DNA from: Peptostreptococcus russellii
GTDB lineage: Bacteria > Bacillota > Clostridia > Peptostreptococcales > Peptostreptococcaceae
Direction: 5' to 3'
Length of the DNA: 64,000 nucleotides
NCBI RefSeq assembly: GCF_003012055.1
Contig: NZ_JYGE01000003.1
Location: forward strand, 434,001-498,000
Positions within the stretch are counted from its first letter, which is position 1. Each line of letters starts with the position of its first letter. Position numbers and translations under genes: made by a program. Under the pieces are notes generated by a model. The model ran no database searches. It was not told where the DNA came from and saw only the letters and a program-made list of their open reading frames with translations. Below are positions 51,592-61,336 of the stretch, in pieces.

Positions 51592-52440
51592 ATGCAAAAA
51601 ATTTGGTTAATACTCAAGCCTTTAATTAAACAATTTAATCTACCAGATTTATATTCAAGGACAGCTGAGATGGCTTTTTATTTAACCGTGTCAATTTTTC
51701 CTTCAATGATATTTATAATCTGTGCCTTAGCATATATACCAGATGTTAATTTGATCAAAATACAGACCTCACTAGCTCAATTAATTCCAAACGAGGCTTT
51801 TATAATTGTTCAAACTCTTATAACATCTGCTGTAAGTAATAGAAGTTTACACCTGTTATTTTTTTCATTCATGTTGGCTACATGGACTTTTTCTAAGGCA
51901 GTAAAGTCTATGATTAAAGGACAAAACATGGCTTTTGGGTTTAAAGAAACGAGGTCGTTTATAAAACTAAATATCTTCTGCATTGTATATGCAGTTGGTT
52001 TTTTTATAGTAACTTTATTATGTGTTGCATTTTTAGTATATGGTAATAAACTGAGTTTTTTATTTAGAAAGGTTGTAGGTGATTTCTTTATATTGAATTT
52101 GCTCTACAACTTAATGAGATATTTAATCCCGATAGCTGTTATGATATATATTTTTATAAATTTATTTACACTTGGTCCTTGTGGAAACTTAAAGTTCAAG
52201 CAAGCTATTCCGGGTGCGATTACAACAACATTGTTATGGTTGATATTTTCTTTAATATACTCATTTTATGCGAATTATTTCTTTAAATCAAAAGAAATTT
52301 ATGGTAGCATATCATCAATTATAATACTTTTAACATGGCTCTATCTCTGTGGTATGGCAATAACTATAGGTTATAAGTTAAATGCTATAATATACCATCA
52401 AGAAGCTGCTAGAAGAAGGTCTAATTCAAGAGTTAATTAA
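51592..52440 (+). CDS. YihY/UPF0761-family membrane protein
   Basis: 282 residues with about six membrane segments. The N-terminal AEMAFYLTVSIFPSMIFIICAL and the C-terminal SSIIILLTWLYLCGMAITIGYKLNAIIY match the YihY (formerly BrkB) family. The family has been annotated as ribonuclease BN by mistake; it is an integral membrane protein of unknown activity. GGAGGTTGAC before ATG 51592 supports this start over an in-frame TTG or GTG further upstream. A terminator follows. Confidence 0.88.
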   Translation: MQKIWLILKPLIKQFNLPDLYSRTAEMAFYLTVSIFPSMIFIICALAYIPDVNLIKIQTSLAQLIPNEAFIIVQTLITSAVSNRSLHLLFFSFMLATWTFSKAVKSMIKGQNMAFGFKETRSFIKLNIFCIVYAVGFFIVTLLCVAFLVYGNKLSFLFRKVVGDFFILNLLYNLMRYLIPIAVMIYIFINLFTLGPCGNLKFKQAIPGAITTTLLWLIFSLIYSFYANYFFKSKEIYGSISSIIILLTWLYLCGMAITIGYKLNAIIYHQEAARRRSNSRVN

Positions 52441-52452
52441 TTTTTTTAAAAT

Positions 52453-52482
52453 AAAAAGCACTTTTAAAAGGGTGCTTTTTTT
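52453..52482 (+). terminator. Terminator after yihY
   Basis: AAGCACTTTT pairs imperfectly with AAAAGGGTGCTT, followed by a T run. Confidence 0.75.
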
Positions 52483-52582
52483 ATTGCCAATAATTACTAT
52501 TTTCTTTCATTAAAAAGTCTATTTTATTGATTGTTATATATGCTATAATAGAATAGTAACTTAAAAAATGGAGGAATATAAA

Positions 52583-53941
52583 TTGACAACTACAAAAAAT
52601 AAGTACAGTACTTGTACGTATTTTCCAAGGGAATATGTTGTTTTAGACCTAGAGGCTACAGGAACGTCTGAGTTTAACTATATAATAGAGCTTAGTGCAT
52701 TTAAGATTTCAGATGGGAAAATTATTGATGAATATAGCACACTTGTCAAACCACCTAGATATAGATTGTTTAGCAAAAGAAGAAGAAAGGTTCAGTCTTT
52801 TTGTGAGAAAAACGGAAAAAAGATTTATTACATAGATAAATTTATAGAAAATCTTACTGGAATAGATAATAAAATGATTAGCAGTGCTAAAAATGAAGCA
52901 AATGTAATCAAGGAATTCTATGAATTTATAGGGGAATCCGTACTGGTTGGACACGGAATGGGAAATGACTTAACTATTATAAATAAATCATTCAATAGAG
53001 TTCTAAAGAAAGAACTTACTAACAATTATCTAGACACATTTGTAATTGCACTTTTTCTAGATAATAAGGAATATTCACTGGTAAATCTATGCAATCGATT
53101 TGGAATTGAGAATCAAGATATACATAGGGCTAAATCAGATGCATATAGAACTTACTTATGCTATGAAGCCTTGATAAAAGAGTTGAAACAGAAGTATCCA
53201 AACTCTGTAAATGAGGATTTTATTACTTGGAATACAATTAGACAACAAAAGCAAACAAAGATACTAAAAAATAAGGTAATGAGATCTTTAAATAAAAAAA
53301 GATGGTCAGACCTAAAAAAATATATGTTTGAACATGGCAACTGTGAAGAGGTTTTAAATGGTACCAATGTAGTAATATCTAATAAGATAAGCAAAAATGA
53401 TCAAGAGTATATAGTAAATCAATTGAATCTTATAGATGCCCATATAAGTAACAGACTAGGCATAAAAACAGATTATTATATATCAGAAAAGAAAGAGTTT
53501 TCTATTGGTAATATTAATTTAGAAGATAAAAAATTAAGAAAAATTATTAATATGAATAAGAAGGGAAGTCATATTCGTATATTTGACAGTGATGAAGTAA
53601 TTGAAATTTTCAAAAAAGAATATAATCCTTCATATATCTATGAAGGTGAAAGTTTCAAAAAAATAGATTTTTCAAATCAATATTTCTATATATATAATGA
53701 TTTTTTATCACTTACAAATGATGAACTGATAGAAAGCATTCAATTAAGGTCTGGGATTGTAACGGACAAGTTAGATAGCAAGGTGAATTGGATAATAGTT
53801 GGTGAGAATCGAGATAAAGATATTTTTAATGATTCTTATGAAAATGAAGTTTTTTTATCACTACTTGCTTTTGGTTGTGATATCTCGGTTTCAAATGAAG
53901 CATTTTTTATAAAAAGTATTGAAAAAAATGAAAATAACTAA
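52583..53941 (+). CDS. DEDDh exonuclease with BRCT-like domains
   Basis: 452 residues. The exonuclease domain (about 15-200) has ExoI VLDLEATG, ExoII VGHGMGNDLTIIN and ExoIII HRAKSDAYRTY, all acidic residues present. A basic insertion (RLFSKRRRKVQ) lies between ExoI and ExoII. The middle (VLNGTNVVISNKISKND, LGIKTDYYIS) and the end (RSGIVTDKLDSKVNWIIVGEN) resemble degenerate BRCT modules, as in DinG/PolC-type exonuclease-BRCT proteins. It probably trims DNA in repair or replication. TTG 52583 is chosen because GGAGG at 52570-52574 sits at the right distance; ATG 52568 overlaps that site. Single gene. Confidence 0.78.
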   Translation: MTTTKNKYSTCTYFPREYVVLDLEATGTSEFNYIIELSAFKISDGKIIDEYSTLVKPPRYRLFSKRRRKVQSFCEKNGKKIYYIDKFIENLTGIDNKMISSAKNEANVIKEFYEFIGESVLVGHGMGNDLTIINKSFNRVLKKELTNNYLDTFVIALFLDNKEYSLVNLCNRFGIENQDIHRAKSDAYRTYLCYEALIKELKQKYPNSVNEDFITWNTIRQQKQTKILKNKVMRSLNKKRWSDLKKYMFEHGNCEEVLNGTNVVISNKISKNDQEYIVNQLNLIDAHISNRLGIKTDYYISEKKEFSIGNINLEDKKLRKIINMNKKGSHIRIFDSDEVIEIFKKEYNPSYIYEGESFKKIDFSNQYFYIYNDFLSLTNDELIESIQLRSGIVTDKLDSKVNWIIVGENRDKDIFNDSYENEVFLSLLAFGCDISVSNEAFFIKSIEKNENN

Positions 53942-53959
53942 TATTAATAAATCTATAAT

Positions 53960-54000
53960 AAGCAGCTTTTTAGTTTAAAACGAAAAGCTGCTTATTTTTT
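53960..54000 (+). terminator. Terminator after the exonuclease gene
   Basis: AAGCAGCTTTT pairs with AAAAGCTGCTT around a loop of about 11 bases, followed by ATTTTTT. Confidence 0.9.
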
Positions 54001-54563
54001 AAAAGAATATCTTTATTGTAAAGTAGTGTATATTTGATTTTAAAGCAAATCTTGCGTATAATATAGATAATGGAAATCTAGTTTTGTAATTTTTATTTTT
54101 TAAAGCTATATTAATAGCAGGAGGTAGTGAGATCTAATATTTTTGTATTAATTTATATTCAATGAATATATTAAGAGCAATTTTTTAAAAAATATCTTTA
54201 ATATACAATTAGTTTATAATTTACTACAGCTTATATTCAATCAAATTCTATAAAAATGATGAATTATTTTTTATAATTCCGTCAGCATTTTACTTATTGA
54301 GTTATATATAGGACTTAAGTATATATTTAATAGGCAATATATACTTTTAAATTATAGCTAAACAATATTAATAAATATGAATAAATGCTATGCTTAAAAA
54401 TATATTTTAGCAAAAATCACTAATATTTTTATATATAAAGCTTAATTTACCTAGATAAATATTACTAAATCCTTGAAAATACTTTTAGGAAAACGGTATA
54501 AAACTTTAGAAATATATAGAACTTTGCAAGGAAATAAAAAAATAAATCATTATGATTAAGTGA
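54001..54563. other. Gene-less AT-rich region with an orphan promoter
   Basis: About 560 bases without a recognisable gene. TTGATT 54034-54039 and TATAAT 54057-54062 with a 17-base spacer form a promoter, and AGGAGG lies at 54119-54124 with a GTG at 54127. That GTG opens only a 12-codon frame ending at TGA 54163-54165. A short dyad, TATATTCA-A-TGAATATA, is near 54154-54170. This may be a decayed gene or a small RNA. Confidence 0.5.
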
Positions 54564-54592
54564 TTGACAATTAATACCTTAAGATGTATATT
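54564..54592 (+). promoter_or_regulatory. Promoter of the 54.6-58.4 kb operon
   Basis: TTGACA 54564-54569 and TATATT 54587-54592 with a 17-base spacer. A palindrome AATCATTATGATT lies immediately upstream at 54545-54557, where an activator or repressor could bind; an identical core is at 51367-51379. Confidence 0.75.
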
Positions 54593-54646
54593 AGTGGATA
54601 TAAATAACATTATTAATTATTACTAATTTATTTTTAGGAGGAAAAA

Positions 54647-55387
54647 ATGAAAGTAGATACTTTTGGTAATCCTGAGAAGCCAGTGGCTTTATTAGTACAC
54701 AGTATTTTTTACCCAGGCGTTACCAGCTATAAATCAATACTTCCAATATTGATTGAAAAATATTATGTGGTAGTACCTAATTTAAATGGACTAACATACC
54801 CACACACGGATTTTACATCAACTAGAGAACAAGCAGATGAAATAATAGAGTGGTTAAAGGAAAATGACATTAAGCACATACATTTCTTGCTTGGATCCTC
54901 ATATGGATCATCAGTTGCTTTTGAAATACTTAAAGAGCAATGGTTAGAGATAGATAATGCTGCGCTTGATTCGCCAGCACTTAAAAATAGTAAATTTCAT
55001 GGTCTTTTATTTTATCATGAAATGAGAAAAATGGTTAAAAAAATAAAAAGAGAAGGTCTTGAGGCTTTAAAGGAGTCCGTTAAATACAGATATCTTACAA
55101 ACAAAGATGAAGAATATTGTATGAAAGTATATCAATGTATGGATGAAAAAACACTTAGAGATATTTCTTTTTCATGTTATGAATATATATTACCTTCACA
55201 ACTATATAGGAAGGGAACAGAAGTTAAATTTTTGTTTGGAGAAAATGATAAAGCAAAAGTAAATCTGCCTGAAGTAAGAAAACTTAAATCAGGTGAAATT
55301 AAAATTGTAGATGGTATGGATCATCTTCAGTTTATGTTTGAAAAGCCAGTTGAGTTTCTTGAAGAATGTGGACTTGACTTAGGATAA
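54647..55387 (+). CDS. Alpha/beta hydrolase
   Basis: 246 residues, no signal peptide, so cytoplasmic. Features: LLVHSIFYPG (oxyanion region), nucleophile motif GSSYGS, Asp in FGENDKAK and His in GMDHLQFM, a full triad. Cap-like helices lie between the nucleophile and the Asp. The substrate is unknown; esters or thioesters are typical. GGAGGAAAAA precedes ATG 54647. It is the first gene after the promoter at 54564, and the next gene starts 27 bases after its stop, so it probably leads the operon. Confidence 0.82.
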   Translation: MKVDTFGNPEKPVALLVHSIFYPGVTSYKSILPILIEKYYVVVPNLNGLTYPHTDFTSTREQADEIIEWLKENDIKHIHFLLGSSYGSSVAFEILKEQWLEIDNAALDSPALKNSKFHGLLFYHEMRKMVKKIKREGLEALKESVKYRYLTNKDEEYCMKVYQCMDEKTLRDISFSCYEYILPSQLYRKGTEVKFLFGENDKAKVNLPEVRKLKSGEIKIVDGMDHLQFMFEKPVEFLEECGLDLG

Positions 55388-55414
55388 TACATTATTATGC
55401 AGGAGGTAAAGACT

Positions 55415-55792
55415 ATGAAAAAAATGTTTTTAGGAGTAGTGCTAGGAGCTGTAGCTGGAGCTGTCGGTTATAAGCTATATAAAGAAAGAGAAGATGAAAT
55501 AAAAGATTTTTTAGATGAATATATAACAGATGATGACTTTGACGTTGATTCAGTTGACGTTGAAGATTTAGAAGATTTACGTGACTGCATAGATGAAATG
55601 ATTGATACAAAACTAAATGTTGAGAATTCATTTACTGAAGATAAATTTACATCTACAGATGACTTTGTAAACGATGAAAATAAAGATGATGAAGAATATA
55701 TCTTTATAAATAATGATGATCATGAAATTATAGATTTAACTAAAGAGTCTTCTAATCAAGAAAGTAAATTTTCAGATAATAATCTAAAGTAA
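55415..55792 (+). CDS. YtxH-like small membrane protein with acidic tail
   Basis: 125 residues. KKMFLGVVLGAVAGAVGYKLYKER is a Gly/Ala-rich single membrane segment typical of YtxH-like proteins. The rest is strongly acidic (DDDFDVDSVDVEDLEDL), probably disordered and cytoplasmic. ATG 55415 follows AGGAGG at 55401-55406; an upstream in-frame ATG at 55397 lacks a site. Function unknown. It lies 18 bases before the nucleotidyltransferase-like gene and so belongs to the operon by position. Confidence 0.7.
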   Translation: MKKMFLGVVLGAVAGAVGYKLYKEREDEIKDFLDEYITDDDFDVDSVDVEDLEDLRDCIDEMIDTKLNVENSFTEDKFTSTDDFVNDENKDDEEYIFINNDDHEIIDLTKESSNQESKFSDNNLK

Positions 55793-55810
55793 ATAGGAGG
55801 AGTATTAATT

Positions 55811-56488
55811 TTGAAAAGAGGTCTAATAATTTTTACTAGGCTACCAATTGCAGGCAAAACAAAAACAAGATTGGAAAAAAAGCTTGCCCAAGATGAATGT
55901 GCTTCTCTTCATATAAATATGTTAAAAGATTTAAACGAAACAGCAAAATCAGTAGATGCTGATATTTTTATATCCTTCACACCAAATGGAGATAAAAGTT
56001 TAATATCAGAAATTTTTACTGTTAAAAACAAAATGTTCCTTCAAAAAGAAGATGCTGATATATGGGAAAGAATGTTTTTTGCTATGGAAAATGTTTTTAA
56101 TAGAGGATATGATCAAGTAATTCTTATTGGAGCTGATATTCCAGAGATTACTTCTGGATATATAAACAGCTCTTTTGATAAATTAAGAGATAATGACCTT
56201 GTTATAACACCGACAGAAGATTATGGATACTGCTTAATTGGGCTGAATGCTCCAAATAAGGATGTTTTTAAATTACAAGGTTTTAAAAAAGGAAATGTTT
56301 TTTCAAATACTTTAAATCTTGCATTTGAGTCTGGAAATACAGTACATATAAATGAAAAGCTTTTAGATTTAGATGAAAGTGAAGACTTGCATATGCTCGT
56401 AACTTCAGGAAGATATGACAAAGACTCTTGTAAAAACACATTAAAATATTTGAAAAGTTTAGGATATCAGGAGAAAATCAATGCTTAA
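55811..56488 (+). CDS. CofC-like nucleotidyl/glycosyltransferase, TIGR04282 (DUF2064) type
   Basis: 225 residues with a GT-A-like Rossmann fold. The N-terminal FTRLPIAGKTKTRLEKKLAQDE is the nucleotide-binding region. ILIGADIPEITSGYINSSFDKL and TPTEDYGYCLIGLN match the family, with Asp residues likely binding metal. Family members are named in databases after an arsenosugar pathway, but no arsenic gene is present here; the sequence supports only transfer of a nucleotidyl or glycosyl group. TTG 55811 follows TAGGAGG. The next gene overlaps it by 8 bases. Confidence 0.8.
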   Translation: MKRGLIIFTRLPIAGKTKTRLEKKLAQDECASLHINMLKDLNETAKSVDADIFISFTPNGDKSLISEIFTVKNKMFLQKEDADIWERMFFAMENVFNRGYDQVILIGADIPEITSGYINSSFDKLRDNDLVITPTEDYGYCLIGLNAPNKDVFKLQGFKKGNVFSNTLNLAFESGNTVHINEKLLDLDESEDLHMLVTSGRYDKDSCKNTLKYLKSLGYQEKINA

Positions 56489-57566
56489 TATTGATAAGGT
56501 GAAAAAGCTTGTAAATACAGCAGAATTTATAGAAAAATATGCTCAGGGGAGAAATTTTCCCCTGAACTTTTATTGTTATAAAGTATCTGTAGAAAATCTT
56601 GCAAATGGTGAGTACAATTTTAACTATAAAATAAATATTGTGATAAAATATCATGAAATAGAAGAAATAAATGAAAGTGCAGTTTTTAGAGTAAATTATG
56701 GAAGTCAAATGAATTTAGAAAATCAATTAGAGTATGAATATGAAGCTCTTTTGTATTTAAAAGATAGTTCTTTTACTCCAAAAGCAATTTTTCTAGATAC
56801 TTCCAAAAGCTTAATTGATAAAGATTATCTTGTAATGGAATTTCTTCAAGGCAGAAGCTTAGACTATAAAATTGACTTAGATAAAGCAGCAAATTGTTTG
56901 GCTGGAGTACATAAATATAATAAGATTAGAAATTTTGAATTTATAGAAGCAGAAAATCCTTTTGAGGCTATATTAGATGAATGTTACTCTATGTATCAAA
57001 AATATCTCGATAGCGATTTATTTGATAGTAGAGTAGATAAAAGAATAAAACTTGTTTTTAATAAAGTGGAAAGTATATTAGAAGATAAGAAAACTTCTTC
57101 CAAAGAACTTTTTAATCTAGATAAAACCTTAATAAATACCGAGGTCAACTCTTCTAACTTCATCGTAAATAATAAAGACTGTTACTTAATAGATTGGGAA
57201 AAACCAATTATAGGGGAAAAAGAACAAGATTTGGGACATTTTTTAGCCCCAACAACTAGTTTTTGGAAGACTGATATCGTATTTAATAGAGATGAAATTG
57301 ATTCATTTTTATATGAATACTATCTCATTTACAATAGTTTAGATGTTCAAGATAAAAAAGATGATGATTTTATAAAATTCAAAAGAAAAGTATATGATTA
57401 TATAATATTCAACTGTCTGAGAGGTTTAACTTGGTGCTCTATGGCTTGGGTAGAATATAATAAGAATGAAAAAGAACTTATAAATGAATTTACTTTTAAA
57501 AAACTACAAGGCTATTTAAATATTAGCTTTATAGATAATATAGTAGAAAACTTTATAAATATTTAA
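56481..57566 (+). CDS. APH/choline-kinase-fold protein with altered catalytic loop
   Basis: 361 residues. The N-lobe includes VFRVNYGSQMNLENQLEYEYEALLYL, and VMEFLQGRSL is the hinge. The catalytic loop, normally HGDLHPGN, reads NTEVNSSN: Asn219 replaces His, Glu221 replaces the catalytic Asp, and Asn226 is kept. The metal motif is kept as LIDWEKPIIGEKEQDLGHFL (Asp238). The fold is that of small-molecule kinases, but activity is uncertain; Glu could act as base. It overlaps the upstream gene by 8 bases, so translation is coupled and the two proteins probably work on one pathway. The glycosyltransferase follows after 79 bases. Confidence 0.75.
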   Translation: MLNIDKVKKLVNTAEFIEKYAQGRNFPLNFYCYKVSVENLANGEYNFNYKINIVIKYHEIEEINESAVFRVNYGSQMNLENQLEYEYEALLYLKDSSFTPKAIFLDTSKSLIDKDYLVMEFLQGRSLDYKIDLDKAANCLAGVHKYNKIRNFEFIEAENPFEAILDECYSMYQKYLDSDLFDSRVDKRIKLVFNKVESILEDKKTSSKELFNLDKTLINTEVNSSNFIVNNKDCYLIDWEKPIIGEKEQDLGHFLAPTTSFWKTDIVFNRDEIDSFLYEYYLIYNSLDVQDKKDDDFIKFKRKVYDYIIFNCLRGLTWCSMAWVEYNKNEKELINEFTFKKLQGYLNISFIDNIVENFINI

Positions 57567-57570
57567 CTTT

Positions 57571-57610
57571 GAGTTGCTATATAGTATATTTAATATGTTA
57601 TTAGCAACTC
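57571..57610 (+). other. Intercistronic hairpin before the GT2 gene
   Basis: GAGTTGCTA (57571-57579) and TAGCAACTC (57602-57610) pair perfectly, with inner ATAT pairs. There is no T run, so it is more likely an RNA processing or stability element than a terminator. Confidence 0.65.
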
Positions 57611-57645
57611 ATAATAAAATACTTATAAAACTAGAGGTATGATGA

Positions 57646-58383
57646 ATGTATAGAAAATTATCAATTATAATTCCAATATATAATGAGTTTGAAAATGTAA
57701 AAAAAATAATAAACAACTTGAAAAATATAGATAATATTTATGAGGTTATCTTTTCGGATGCATCGAATGACTATAAATCTAAGAGAGAAATAGTTGAAGC
57801 AGATAGGAAAAATAATAGCACTGTCTTTAAGTACGTTCAATCTGCTAAGGGAAGATCCATTCAAATGAATGAAGGTTACAAACATTCAAATGGAGATATA
57901 GTAATGTTTCTTCACTGTGATAGTATTGTAGAAGAAAACTTTGCTTCAAAGATTATAGACTCTATTAATAAGAATGTGGAGTTTGGTTGTTTATCTATAT
58001 ATTTTGATGATAGTAGACTTTTGATGAAAATATGTGGATATATGTCTAGGAGAAGAGCTAAAAATAGAAAAATCGCTTTTGGCGATCAAGGGATGTTTTT
58101 TACAAGGCATATGTTTGAACTACTTGGAATGTTTCCTGAAATAGCTCTTATGGAAGATTATGAAATGTCTATAAAGGCCAAAAAAATCACTGATTTAAAA
58201 CAAATAGATTCTAAAATAATAACTTCTTCTAGAAAATATTATTCAAATAAGGGGATATTCAATAAAGGGCTATTGAGCTTTATAGGTATTTTAAAAACAA
58301 TGTTGGATATGCAAATTTTCCAATATCAATATAGAAAGGGAATATCAGCTGATAACTTATATAAAAGATATTATAAAAATTGA
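57646..58383 (+). CDS. Family 2 glycosyltransferase, TIGR04283 type
   Basis: 245 residues. LSIIIPIYNEFENVKKII starts the GT2 nucleotide-binding fold; SAKGRSIQMNEGYKHSNGDIVMFLHCDS is the TIGR04283 signature, containing the metal Asp; FGDQGMFFTRHMFELLGMFPEIALMEDYEMSIK is the acceptor region with the catalytic acid. Pairing of this family with the TIGR04282 type is frequent. The product family is called arsenosugar-related by name only. The ATG follows an AGAGGTATG site. Last gene of the operon; the next gene has its own promoter-like TATAAT. Confidence 0.82.
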   Translation: MYRKLSIIIPIYNEFENVKKIINNLKNIDNIYEVIFSDASNDYKSKREIVEADRKNNSTVFKYVQSAKGRSIQMNEGYKHSNGDIVMFLHCDSIVEENFASKIIDSINKNVEFGCLSIYFDDSRLLMKICGYMSRRRAKNRKIAFGDQGMFFTRHMFELLGMFPEIALMEDYEMSIKAKKITDLKQIDSKIITSSRKYYSNKGIFNKGLLSFIGILKTMLDMQIFQYQYRKGISADNLYKRYYKN

Positions 58384-58495
58384 TATTTAGACTTCAAATA
58401 AGATTATATTTTGAAGTTTAAATATAATTATCGGAAAATTCATAAATATGTGATATAATTATAATAGTACTATTTATAATTTTATGGAGGTTGTT

Positions 58496-58966
58496 ATGAG
58501 TTTAGAAAATGTTAAAAAGTATTTTAAAGCTTTTAAAAGAGACAATGATATTATAGTTTTTGATAAGAGCAGCGCAACTGTAGAACTAGCTGCTATGGCA
58601 CTCAAGACAGAAGAGGCTAGGATCGCCAAAACCCTTGCTTTTATAAAAAATGATTCATTAATTTTAGTTTTAACTTCAGGTGATATGAAGATAGATAATA
58701 AAAAATATAAAAATGAATTTGCCTGTAAAGCAAAGATGATTCCTTATGAAGACACGGAGAAACTTATAGGACATCTGCCTGGAGGAATATGTCCATTTGC
58801 TATAAAAGATAATGTATTTGTTTATTTAGATGAATCTTTAAAAAGATTTGAAACATCTTTCCCAGCGGCAGGTAGTGCTAATTCTGCAATAGAACTCAAC
58901 TGTGAAGAGTTGATGAAATACTCTCAGAATTTTATAAAATGGGTGGATATTTGTAAAAGCAAGTGA
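58496..58966 (+). CDS. YbaK/EbsC-family aminoacyl-tRNA deacylase
   Basis: 156 residues. YbaK-like editing domain that hydrolyses mischarged aminoacyl-tRNA in trans, often Cys- or Ala-tRNA-Pro. Key segments: RIAKTLAFIKNDSLILVLTSGDMKID with the conserved Lys, and PGGICPFAIKDNVFVYLDESLKRFETSFPAAGSANSAIEL, the substrate pocket. Which tRNA it edits cannot be read. GGAGG at 58486-58490 supports ATG 58496. A TATAAT-like element lies about 40 bases upstream, so it may be transcribed separately from the glycosyltransferase operon. Confidence 0.9.
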   Translation: MSLENVKKYFKAFKRDNDIIVFDKSSATVELAAMALKTEEARIAKTLAFIKNDSLILVLTSGDMKIDNKKYKNEFACKAKMIPYEDTEKLIGHLPGGICPFAIKDNVFVYLDESLKRFETSFPAAGSANSAIELNCEELMKYSQNFIKWVDICKSK

Positions 58967-59316
58967 TTCCGTGGTTTAGTTATAGTAAACAAATAAAAAA
59001 ATTTAAAAAACATAAGTTCATAGATACTAAATTTTTTAGTTATATTGATAAATTTACTTATTAGTTAAAAACTCTATAACAGTTGAATTCAAAAGCTTTT
59101 TAAATAGTTTTTATTTTCGAGCTTAAAAAGCCTTAAATCCAAGTCAAAAACTTAACGAAAAAAGTCTTTTTTTGAAATAGTATTTTTGCTATTGTAAAGA
59201 GTCTTTTTTTTATGTATAATTAATTAACGTTAAGCTTAACAAATGAATATTAGGTAGGTAGCGCTTCCATAAAGAAGTAATTGCATTTTATTGCAAAAGA
59301 AAAGGAAGGTATTTTT
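58967..59316. other. Intergenic region with the promoter of the short yitT gene
   Basis: 350 AT-rich bases. TTGTAA 59192-59197 and TATAAT 59215-59220 with a 17-base spacer form a promoter. The perfect 12-base palindrome GTTAAGCTTAAC at 59229-59240 lies at the expected transcription start, an operator candidate. AAGGAAGG precedes the start codon. Nothing else was recognised; the first 200 bases contain no clear terminator. Confidence 0.65.
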
Positions 59317-59958
59317 ATGGACAAACGGTGTGTTATAAAAAAGTTATGTCTAATGACAATTGGTACTTTTATATTATCGTTTGGAGTATATAATTTTTAT
59401 TATCAAAATAGCATTACAGAAGGAGGAGTACTAGGAATACTTCTAATTCTTAAAAATCTATTTGATGTAAATCCGTCTATATCAAATGTTATAATAGATG
59501 GATTATTGATTTTATTAGGATTTAAATTTTTCGGAAAAGAATTTTTCGGATTTACTATATTTGCATCTCTATGTTTTTCAACTATGTATGCCATATGTGA
59601 AAAAGTAGGATTTTTAGTTACGATTAATAATAACATTATAGCTGCTATTTTAGGTGGCCTATGCGTAGGAGTAGGGTGTGCTATAATAATGAATGCAGGT
59701 GGTGCATCTGGTGGAGATGATGTATTGGCTATTGTTCTATCAAAGATATCAAAATGGAGAATAGGTGTAATATATTTATTAACAGATATCTCTGTTTTAT
59801 TACTTTCACTTATATATTTACCTTTGGACACAATGGTCTATTCAATAATAGCTGTTATAACAAGTGGTCAAGTGATAGACTTATTATATAAAAATGAGAA
59901 TGCTTTTATTTCGGAAACTATCTTAGCAGAAAAAGCAGATGAAAAATTAGCAGCATAA
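59317..59958 (+). CDS. Short YitT-family membrane protein
   Basis: 213 residues with about five membrane segments. The family signatures LSFGVYNFYYQNSITEGGVLG and IIMNAGGASGGDDVLAIVLSK are present. It lacks the C-terminal DUF2179 domain found in the relative at 29198-30064, so it is the membrane-only form. Function unknown. ATG 59317 follows AAGGAAGG at 59303-59310. It has its own promoter with an operator-like palindrome and appears to be a single-gene unit. Confidence 0.85.
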   Translation: MDKRCVIKKLCLMTIGTFILSFGVYNFYYQNSITEGGVLGILLILKNLFDVNPSISNVIIDGLLILLGFKFFGKEFFGFTIFASLCFSTMYAICEKVGFLVTINNNIIAAILGGLCVGVGCAIIMNAGGASGGDDVLAIVLSKISKWRIGVIYLLTDISVLLLSLIYLPLDTMVYSIIAVITSGQVIDLLYKNENAFISETILAEKADEKLAA

Positions 59959-60313
59959 TTTTATATAGTGTATCACAATATAAGTAAATTCATATTTAAA
60001 AGCAGATTATTCAGCTTTTAAAACTATATAACAAACATTTAAGGCTTGATCTATCTTGATTTAGTCTTTATTTATGTAGGTTTTTTCCTATTTTTTTATG
60101 TTTTTCTTTGACAAAATAGAATATTTTGCATTTTTTCTTAAATCATTACGAAATATTAAAAAATAGAATATATATATTGCATTATTAATATAAATAGTAT
60201 ACAATAAATATGTAAGAAGAAAATATATTACATACTATTGAGTTGTGATATCGTTTTTTTAGATATTAATGCAACAATAATATAATTATCATATACTATA
60301 CGGAGGAATTTAA
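59959..60313. other. Intergenic leader before gap
   Basis: 355 AT-rich bases. A TATAAT at 60281-60286 may belong to the gap promoter, with CGGAGGA just before the gene. No gene, terminator with a clear stem, or riboswitch was recognised. Confidence 0.4.
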
Positions 60314-61336
60314 ATGAAAATAAAAGTAGGTCTAAATGGATTTGGTAGAATAGGTAGAGCAGTCTTAAGAATAGCAGAAAGTTCAAATGATTATGATTTT
60401 GAAGTTGTAGCTATAAATGCAAGAGCAAATGCAGAAACTCTAGCACACCTTTTCCAATATGATTCAAGTTATGGAATTTTCCAGGGTGATGTAGAAGTAA
60501 AGAGCGAAGACTGTATATCTGTAAATGGAAGAGATATAGCAATCACTAGAGAAAATCATCCATCAGAAATACCTTGGAAGGATCTAGGAGTTGACATAGT
60601 AGTTGAAAATACAGGTAAATTTAAAACTAGAGAAGATGCTATAGGACATATAGAATCAGGTGCTAAGAAAGTTGTTATAACTTGCCCAGCAAAGGATGAA
60701 GACATAACAGTAGTTCTAGGAGTAAATGATAAGGATTATGATTCAGATTTACATAATATTATATCAAATGCTTCTTGTACAACTAACTGTCTAGCTCCAG
60801 TAGCAAAGGTAATCGATGAAAAGTTTGGAATTGAAAACGGTATGATGACAACTGTTCATGCATATACTAACGACCAGCAGGTATTAGATAAGACTCATAA
60901 GGACTTAAGAAGATCAAGAGCTTGTGGAGCATCAATAATACCAACAACTACTGGTGCAGCAAAAGCTGTTTCACTAGTATTACCACAGTTAAAGGGTAAA
61001 TTAAACGGTTTTTCTCTAAGAGTTCCTACTCAGACTGTATCAATTGTTGACTTAGTTGTAAATGTAAATAAGAAGGATGTTACAGCTGAAGAAGTAAATG
61101 CAGCTCTTAAGGAAGCTTCAGAAAATGAATTAAAGGGTATATTAGGATTCTCAGACAGACCTTTAGTATCAGTTGACTATAAGGGAGACGCTAGATCTTC
61201 TATAGTTGATGGATTATCTACTATGGTTATGGAAGATGGACTTGTAAAAGTATTATCTTGGTATGACAATGAATGGGCATACGCTGTTAGATCTGCAGAC
61301 CTAGTTAACCTAATCTGTAAAAAATTAAATAAGTAA
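60314..61336 (+). CDS. gap: Glyceraldehyde-3-phosphate dehydrogenase
   Basis: 340 residues, phosphorylating NAD-dependent GAPDH of glycolysis. NAD-binding KVGLNGFGRIGRAVLR at the N-terminus. Catalytic Cys155 in SNASCTTNCLAPVAK, with the activating His further on in the RVPTQTVSIVDLV region. WYDNEWAYAVRSADLV ends the protein. CGGAGG precedes the ATG. It stands alone; pgk, tpiA and the other glycolytic genes do not follow, unlike in many Firmicutes. It ends at a strong terminator. Confidence 0.97.
   Translation: MKIKVGLNGFGRIGRAVLRIAESSNDYDFEVVAINARANAETLAHLFQYDSSYGIFQGDVEVKSEDCISVNGRDIAITRENHPSEIPWKDLGVDIVVENTGKFKTREDAIGHIESGAKKVVITCPAKDEDITVVLGVNDKDYDSDLHNIISNASCTTNCLAPVAKVIDEKFGIENGMMTTVHAYTNDQQVLDKTHKDLRRSRACGASIIPTTTGAAKAVSLVLPQLKGKLNGFSLRVPTQTVSIVDLVVNVNKKDVTAEEVNAALKEASENELKGILGFSDRPLVSVDYKGDARSSIVDGLSTMVMEDGLVKVLSWYDNEWAYAVRSADLVNLICKKLNK

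Follow-up and report, generated by a model that had tools for sequence, protein, structure and literature searches.

A conserved T1-APH-T2 gene unit in Peptostreptococcus russellii and its possible role in a nucleoside-derived sugar pathway

The DNA analysed here, which we call the window, is a 64,000-nucleotide stretch of Peptostreptococcus russellii (contig NZ_JYGE01000003.1, positions 434,001 to 498,000). It lies on contig C4 of the window genome (G000; 2.08 Mb, 12 contigs) and carries three adjacent genes that are the subject of this report: a TIGR04282 gene (T1), an APH-fold gene (APH) and a TIGR04283 gene (T2), together called the triad. The original prediction placed five forward-strand genes behind one promoter at this site and treated them as one operon. 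All five open reading frames (ORFs) are present at the positions it gave, and their tight spacing is borne out: the intergenic gaps are 9, 18, -8 and 79 bases, the negative value being the 8-base overlap of T1 with APH. The locus holds the following features:

54564..54592, + strand: sigma-70-like promoter site TTGACA-17-TATATT, 11/12 consensus positions, upstream of HYD
54647..55387, + strand: HYD, alpha/beta-hydrolase-like gene
55397..55792, + strand: gene for a small protein, earlier labelled 'YtxH-like', with no family match above cut-off
55811..56488, + strand: T1, CofC/DUF2064-type nucleotidyltransferase-like, TIGR04282 (165.8 bits), TTG start
56481..57566, + strand: APH, APH-fold kinase-like protein (PF01636, 31.9 bits) with an N219-T-E221-x-N-x-x-N226-F loop and D238-W-E240
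57570..57611, + strand: hairpin between APH and T2 (z -2.4 for 57560-57650), a possible processing or attenuation element
57646..58383, + strand: T2, family 2 glycosyltransferase, TIGR04283 (190.5 bits)
58383..58425, + strand: strong hairpin after T2 (z -5.0 for 58381-58440), a possible transcript end

T1, APH and T2 are a real and widely conserved three-gene unit. The genome samples for the order, class and phylum were draws. Among the 297 genomes of the order, T2 and APH are both present in 42 and both absent in 251; two genomes have T2 alone (G237, G285) and two have APH alone (G206, G253). The sampled genomes share kinship, so Fisher p values for this co-occurrence overstate the association. 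The 44 T2-positive genomes are the 43 above the TIGR04283 cut-off plus G162 (175.8 bits, cut-off 182), and the 44 with APH are the 46 found by our APH profile (A1) at an E-value of 1e-15 minus the weak matches in G025 and G146 (about 124 bits). In 39/44 T2-positive genomes the three genes share a strand and span no more than about 6.2 kb. The other five are G237 and G285, which lack APH, G166 and G060, whose APH lies on a different contig, and G224, where a short contig holds T2 next to APH. T1 is fused to T2 in six genomes (G263, G077, G237, G285, G166 and G060; T1~T2) and to APH in four (G064 in the order and G664, G549 and G580 outside it; T1~APH). G261 encodes a single VTT~T1~CCG protein, CCG being an Fe-S domain. 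ORF calling had masked some of these genes under longer antisense ORFs (APH in G077, T2 in G076, T1~T2 in G060, T2 at loci L118 and L134), and 14 loci were rechecked in all six frames.

The APH family extends to nine genomes of the class outside the order (14/391 class genomes in all) and to 10 further genomes of the phylum sample (11/398, the window genome included). No plasmid record among 72,556 matched the window APH at E 1e-5, and a plasmid-borne system was rejected on this ground.

HYD and the small gene are core neighbours in the genus and not members of the unit. HYD is present in 9/9 genus genomes, including two, G003 and G015, that have no T2 and no APH genome-wide. In G003, G015 and G064 (L137, L138, L139) HYD adjoins the small gene at the same site with no triad there, and the two are followed by YitT and GAPDH genes or directly by GAPDH. 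Since the pair occurs without the triad in G003 and G015, the five genes are not one conserved unit; outside the genus, none of the mapped loci shows either gene with the triad. The original prediction would have been undermined if its homologues rarely occurred together. A survey of gene order across genomes found the members of the triad regularly together, and HYD and the small gene without them. The kinase, nucleotidyltransferase and glycosyltransferase logic that it read into the locus therefore survives for the last three genes, given their co-occurrence, adjacency and fusions, and fails for the first two. Neither of its labels for the first two was confirmed: the best match of the 'hydrolase' is an alpha/beta-hydrolase model, Hydrolase_4, at 19.8 bits, under the cut-off of 27, and for the 'YtxH-like' protein no Pfam or NCBIfam model exceeds its cut-off (lowest E 0.073 and 0.022, respectively). 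The triad of G064 is about 24 kb away from HYD and the small gene, clustered with the radical SAM gene arsS. Its APH falls among fused T1~APH proteins from a different family, which suggests transfer.

The genes around the triad in relatives give some hints of a product. T1~T2 is fused to a bacterial sugar transferase domain at L042:9005-11050 (G237) and L044:8973-11030 (G285) (PF02397, seen for L042), and the genes nearby encode additional glycosyltransferases and a protein resembling O-antigen ligases; ArsS lies at a distance of about 5.6 kb in G237 and 6.7 kb in G285. This fusion and these polysaccharide-type neighbours suggest that the product may go onto a polysaccharide. A UDP-galactopyranose mutase-type gene overlaps the T1~T2 fusion gene of G263 (L040:10918-12105), a hint of a furanose sugar. 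Genes for VTT/TVP38-type membrane proteins occur in the triad stretch of 30/44 genomes (e.g. L050:8090-9498), making a lipid-linked product possible. One of these proteins (L066) weakly resembles the undecaprenyl phosphate transporter UptA (37.3 bits, cut-off 250).

Family membership and catalytic residues

T1 and T2 belong to the two TIGR families to which they had been assigned, with scores above the cut-offs of 134 for TIGR04282 and 182 for TIGR04283. The arsenosugar naming in databases is also confirmed: TIGR04282, TIGR04283, TIGR04169 and ArsS are all called 'arsenosugar biosynthesis' in NCBIfam already. Residues R10, K18, T19, R20, D109, D137, G139, D186 and D188 of T1 are invariant in 35/35 aligned sequences, as are D38, D92, E170 and D171 of T2 in 46/46. 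T1 resembles the CofC / FbiD 2-phospholactate guanylyltransferases in belonging to the same superfamily (PF01983, 51.4 bits). It differs from CofC itself, reaching 44.7 bits against TIGR03552 with its cut-off of 105, which rules out membership of the CofC/F420 group. The substrate of CofC is a phospho-acid, not a sugar phosphate. The closest solved relative of T1 is 3cgx, a putative nucleotide-diphospho-sugar transferase (E 7e-45). A literature search, with most subscription journals outside its reach, returned no experimental work on T1, APH or T2.

The APH-fold assignment holds, the PF01636 score lying above its cut-off of 23.2. The canonical catalytic loop of this fold is HxDxxxxN, which the window APH does not have. 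N-T-E-x-N-x-x-N-F replaces it in all 64 loci checked (63/63 mapped loci plus G077), a count that holds P. anaerobius twice (L002, L038) and does not include G025 and G146. The closest solved sequences are the APH(9)-type spectinomycin phosphotransferase 3i0o (E 8e-6) and the APH-family protein 7s3l (E 8e-5). Both share the loop and DW positions with APH, and both show HxDxxxxN; they retain the catalytic aspartate and histidine, whereas the APH family has glutamate and asparagine. In the alignment E221 takes the place of the catalytic aspartate, and N219 that of the histidine located two residues earlier. Twelve residues (N219, T220, E221, N223, N226, F227, D238, W239, E240, K241, P242 and R314) are invariant in 39 aligned rows, among them the Mg-binding positions N226 and D238 and the E240 of the DxE motif. 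Across 21 diverse APH rows 48 columns are invariant.

Two kinases of related fold are informative here. In methylthioribose (MTR) kinase (MtnK) the DxE motif binds Mg and the Asp of the HGD loop polarises the anomeric oxygen, according to the available part of PMC2194712; the invariant D238-W-E240 of APH fits this DxE motif. Maltokinase (Mak), as described in the accessible portion of PMC4306142, makes maltose 1-phosphate, has an HGD loop, occurs fused to a partner from its pathway and frequently carries the annotation APH. MtnK and Mak are like the proposed APH role in fold and in targeting the anomeric hydroxyl, and unlike the APH family, with its N-T-E, in using the HGD loop (same portions of PMC2194712 and PMC4306142). 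Searching the PDB with the APH profile gave no MTR kinase at E up to 1, and searching NCBIfam with APH gave no MTR kinase model at E up to 0.1. Together with the NTE loop, these absent matches rule out membership of the MTR kinase family. A Glu-for-Asp change in the loop is not described in the available parts of papers on choline kinases, maltokinase and MTR kinase (PMC4702295, PMC4306142, PMC2194712).

A tree of the APH-like protein, as the original prediction had proposed, was built from 51 rows. One side of a branch (support 96/89) is made up of the genus rows together with the T1~APH fusions, and 9/10 rows on that side come from genomes with ArsS; the exception is G580, confirmed to lack it. 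Mapped on the whole tree, the ArsS label requires 7 changes, against 14.5 in shuffles. A well-supported group of 16 rows (100/100) is entirely without ArsS.

Arsenic genes, nucleoside import and nucleoside cleavage

The original prediction saw no radical SAM arsenosugar gene. This is true of the window locus; the genome, in contrast, encodes both ArsS and a TIGR04169 protein on contig C6. ArsS (TIGR04167, 438.8 bits, cut-off 300) lies at G000:C6:118109-118981 and is preceded by the AhpD-like TIGR04169 protein (145.6 bits, cut-off 120) and a C-GCAxxG-C-C protein (52.8 bits, cut-off 47.4). All four members of the NCBI 'arsenosugar biosynthesis' set (TIGR04167 ArsS, TIGR04169, TIGR04282, TIGR04283) are thus in the genome over their cut-offs. 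The differences from that set are that the genes are split over two contigs, with ArsS not next to T1 and T2, that ArsM is missing, and that there is an additional APH-fold kinase-like family, which the four models do not cover.

ArsS is above cut-off in 18/297 order genomes, and 17 of these 18 have T2, the exception being G136. In the genus, 7/9 genomes have both ArsS and T2 and 2/9 have neither. The fetched stretch that holds triad genes also holds ArsS in 7/17 genomes with both ArsS and T2 (G064, G232, G209, G156, G165, G237, G285); outside the order, ArsS shares a stretch with T1 and T2 in G664 and G549. The product of ArsS is DDMAA, a nucleoside. The radical SAM enzyme of oxo-arsenosugar synthesis adenosylates arsenic, as stated in the available part of PMC12159101.

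The claim that no arsenic methylase is present holds genome-wide, the best match to the ArsM model NF008823 reaching 31.8 bits against a cut-off of 263. The C-As bond-forming enzyme family is represented in the window genome, a dedicated methylase is not. ArsM and the nucleoside hydrolase family PF01156 were searched in 47 chosen genomes, the 44 T2-positive ones plus G003, G015 and G136. ArsM exceeds the cut-off in 8/47: in 4/18 genomes with ArsS (G038, G156, G209, G224) and in 4/27 T2 genomes without it (G037, G043, G242, G244). Long matches below cut-off occur in G285, G166, G237 and G060, and G232 has two partial pieces. The eight matches over cut-off contain one or two in-frame stops, TGA in all except G043; the available part of PMC13188914 lists arsenite methyltransferase as a selenoprotein, in line with this. 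In G060, ArsM-like and ArsS domains form one 676-residue protein (L089:8350-10377). Two other ArsS copies (L088 in G060, L091 in G136) have an N-terminal part of about 370 residues, which in L088 has no NCBIfam match.

In relatives, the triad is adjoined by either an ArsS module or a module of importer and hydrolase. The ATP-binding cassette (ABC) importer of the ArsS-less triad stretches consists of a PRK11622-type binding protein (18/27), two permeases and an ATPase; it was found in none of the triad stretches of the 17 ArsS genomes. A PF01156 nucleoside hydrolase lies in the triad stretch of 17/27 ArsS-less genomes versus 0/17 with ArsS. Genome-wide, PF01156 is present in 27/27 T2-positive ArsS-less genomes versus 6/18 ArsS genomes. 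PF01156 was not matched in the triad-less G003 and G015; these two and G136 are the whole T2-negative background for this comparison. The subfamily to which the triad-associated hydrolase belongs (A5) occurs in 26/185 order genomes searched, and 23 of the 26 carry the triad (the others are G136, G183 and G048); at least G064, G162 and G141 carry the triad without this subfamily. In G136 (L090) it lies beside ArsS and an AhpD-like gene. The window genome has importer and hydrolase together on contig C8 (L124), as do G038 and G159 in their own genomes (L141, L142), and G027 has the hydrolase with no importer in the stretch fetched (L140).

A possible pathway and its alternatives

The probable substrate of the triad is an unusual sugar released from a nucleoside. 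We propose that the triad activates and transfers this sugar at the end of a pathway whose parts are kept in three separate places in the genome, and give this reading a probability of roughly 0.4. The nucleoside would be made by ArsS, which would transfer an adenosyl group to an arsenical or another soft nucleophile of that sort, or it would be taken up by the ABC transporter encoded on C8. A nucleosidase, either the C8 nucleoside hydrolase or the methylthioadenosine/S-adenosylhomocysteine (MTA/SAH) nucleosidase, would free a 5-substituted ribose. The APH-fold protein would then phosphorylate this sugar, most likely on the anomeric hydroxyl as MTR kinase and maltokinase do, T1 would turn the sugar phosphate into a nucleotide sugar, and T2 would attach the sugar to an acceptor, which may be a lipid. 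ArsS and the importer with its hydrolase would both lead to a ribose-type sugar, and this is the main reason why we chose this mechanism. The two would be alternative nucleoside sources feeding the same triad. The observations are the gene families, their conserved clustering, the fusions, the co-occurrence and the modules within one genome; from them we infer every reaction, the substrate, the order of the steps and any involvement of arsenic.

A tentative extension, on the doubtful side in our judgement, is that APH represents a new class of APH-fold sugar 1-kinase with an Asn-Thr-Glu loop. It would supply the step between nucleoside cleavage and nucleotide-sugar formation for an arsenosugar, or a sister 5-substituted riboside, in Peptostreptococcus and other members of the phylum. 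For the arsenosugar steps after ArsS we found no assigned enzymes in the literature searched, and the triad offers a concrete three-enzyme proposal. As far as our searches reach, that literature describes neither the APH kinase-like family nor the split arrangement nor the alternative of importer and nucleoside hydrolase. The earlier reading of the locus wrongly extended the unit by two core neighbours and wrongly assumed that it had no ArsS partner.

Several observations weigh against our proposal. The three modules are unlinked in the window genome, so the link between them is comparative only. The altered catalytic loop leaves the kinase activity of APH putative, and an AlphaFold model of APH from two sequences was too poor for use (mean pLDDT 42). 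The gene set is also incomplete in places: G206 and G253 have APH without T2, and G237 and G285 have ArsS and T1~T2, yet no APH. At two more distant loci (L131, L135) APH stands with importer and hydrolase, and a six-frame reading of the stretch shows neither T1 nor T2; these loci also point to the freed sugar as the substrate of APH. At L130 the contig is too short to decide on T1 and T2. PF01156 is widespread (5/14 control genomes), the only match in G141 is of the ordinary kind (332.9 bits, no subfamily match), and none was found in G064, G162 and G219. MTA/SAH nucleosidase, present in 9/9 genus genomes, could split the nucleoside in these three. As to arsenic, ArsS is missing from 27/44 T2 genomes of the order and from 17/19 APH genomes outside it (2/19 have it). 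Since most carriers surveyed lack ArsS, the name 'arsenosugar biosynthesis glycosyltransferase' may have been passed on by neighbourhood. The window genome has no ArsM, and ArsM does not follow ArsS across genomes, which weighs against arsenic.

The same enzyme chain might act on an ordinary or a sulfur- or selenium-bearing pentose that comes from nucleosides, either taken up or made in the cell, with arsenic irrelevant and ArsS an optional supplier or a bystander. We take this to be a serious contender, if a somewhat unlikely one. It would fit the many carriers without ArsS, the lack of ArsM in the window genome, an ArsM that is no commoner with ArsS than without it, and the ABC importer, nucleoside hydrolase, YedE/TusA and rhodanese genes around the triad in many genomes. 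It sits poorly with the presence of T2 in nearly every ArsS genome, with the joint variation of ArsS and T2 in the genus, and with the ArsM-like domain fused to ArsS in G060. In every locus checked, Asn and Glu stand where HxDxxxxN has His and Asp; this and the four fusions of APH to T1 would suit an APH that is a pseudokinase, a regulator or a scaffold of T1 and no catalyst. Such a role is improbable: N226, D238 and E240 never vary in the 39 rows, the 48 invariant columns are above what would be expected of a scaffold, and at L135 APH lies next to a nucleoside hydrolase without T1 or T2.

A route resembling LicA/LicC, in which APH would be an alcohol kinase (for choline, glycerol or similar), T1 a cytidylyl or guanylyl transferase and T2 a separate sugar transferase for the same product, could draw on the CofC-like character of T1, as CofC acts on a phospho-acid. 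Choline kinases also have this fold, and their Mg-binding loop, DFE (available part of PMC4702295), is similar to the DWE of APH. The six fusions of T1 to a glycosyltransferase argue against such a route, and it would leave the nucleoside hydrolase of all 27 ArsS-less T2 genomes unexplained; we consider it very improbable. Hardly any credence is left for the earlier proposal of a single glycoconjugate pathway comprising all five window genes. Close spacing, a common strand and one good promoter-like site speak for it, but HYD is found throughout the genus, mapped triad loci outside the genus show neither HYD nor the small gene, and the empty sites of G003, G015 and G064 led us to reject it.

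Transcription signals and neighbouring genes

The single promoter claimed for the locus was upheld in part. A consensus-like site is present, one of two 11-of-12 sites in 52000-60500; it is a pattern match alone, as a scan of this region gave 68 sites against 64.2 in shuffles, so that such sites are not commoner than chance and are no proof of a promoter. With a hairpin between APH and T2, the expression of T2 may differ in level from that of the genes before it. The strong hairpin at 58383..58425 was not among the reports of a terminator scan.

The nearest named genome is that of Peptostreptococcus anaerobius (L002), with 52% identity in the APH protein, and P. anaerobius alone was recovered in a single-sequence search for related loci. 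The gene map of G162, from the same genus as the window genome, is a mirror image.

A YbaK/Cys-tRNA(Pro)-deacylase-like gene lies at window positions 58484-58966 and follows T2 in 5 of the 6 genus genomes that carry the triad here. It was not found at three genus sites without the triad. Because it tracks the triad at the site, it may have moved with the cassette. Upstream, at 52568-53941, the window encodes a DnaQ-like exonuclease with a C-terminal BRCT domain, which is found at the same site in 8/9 genus genomes.

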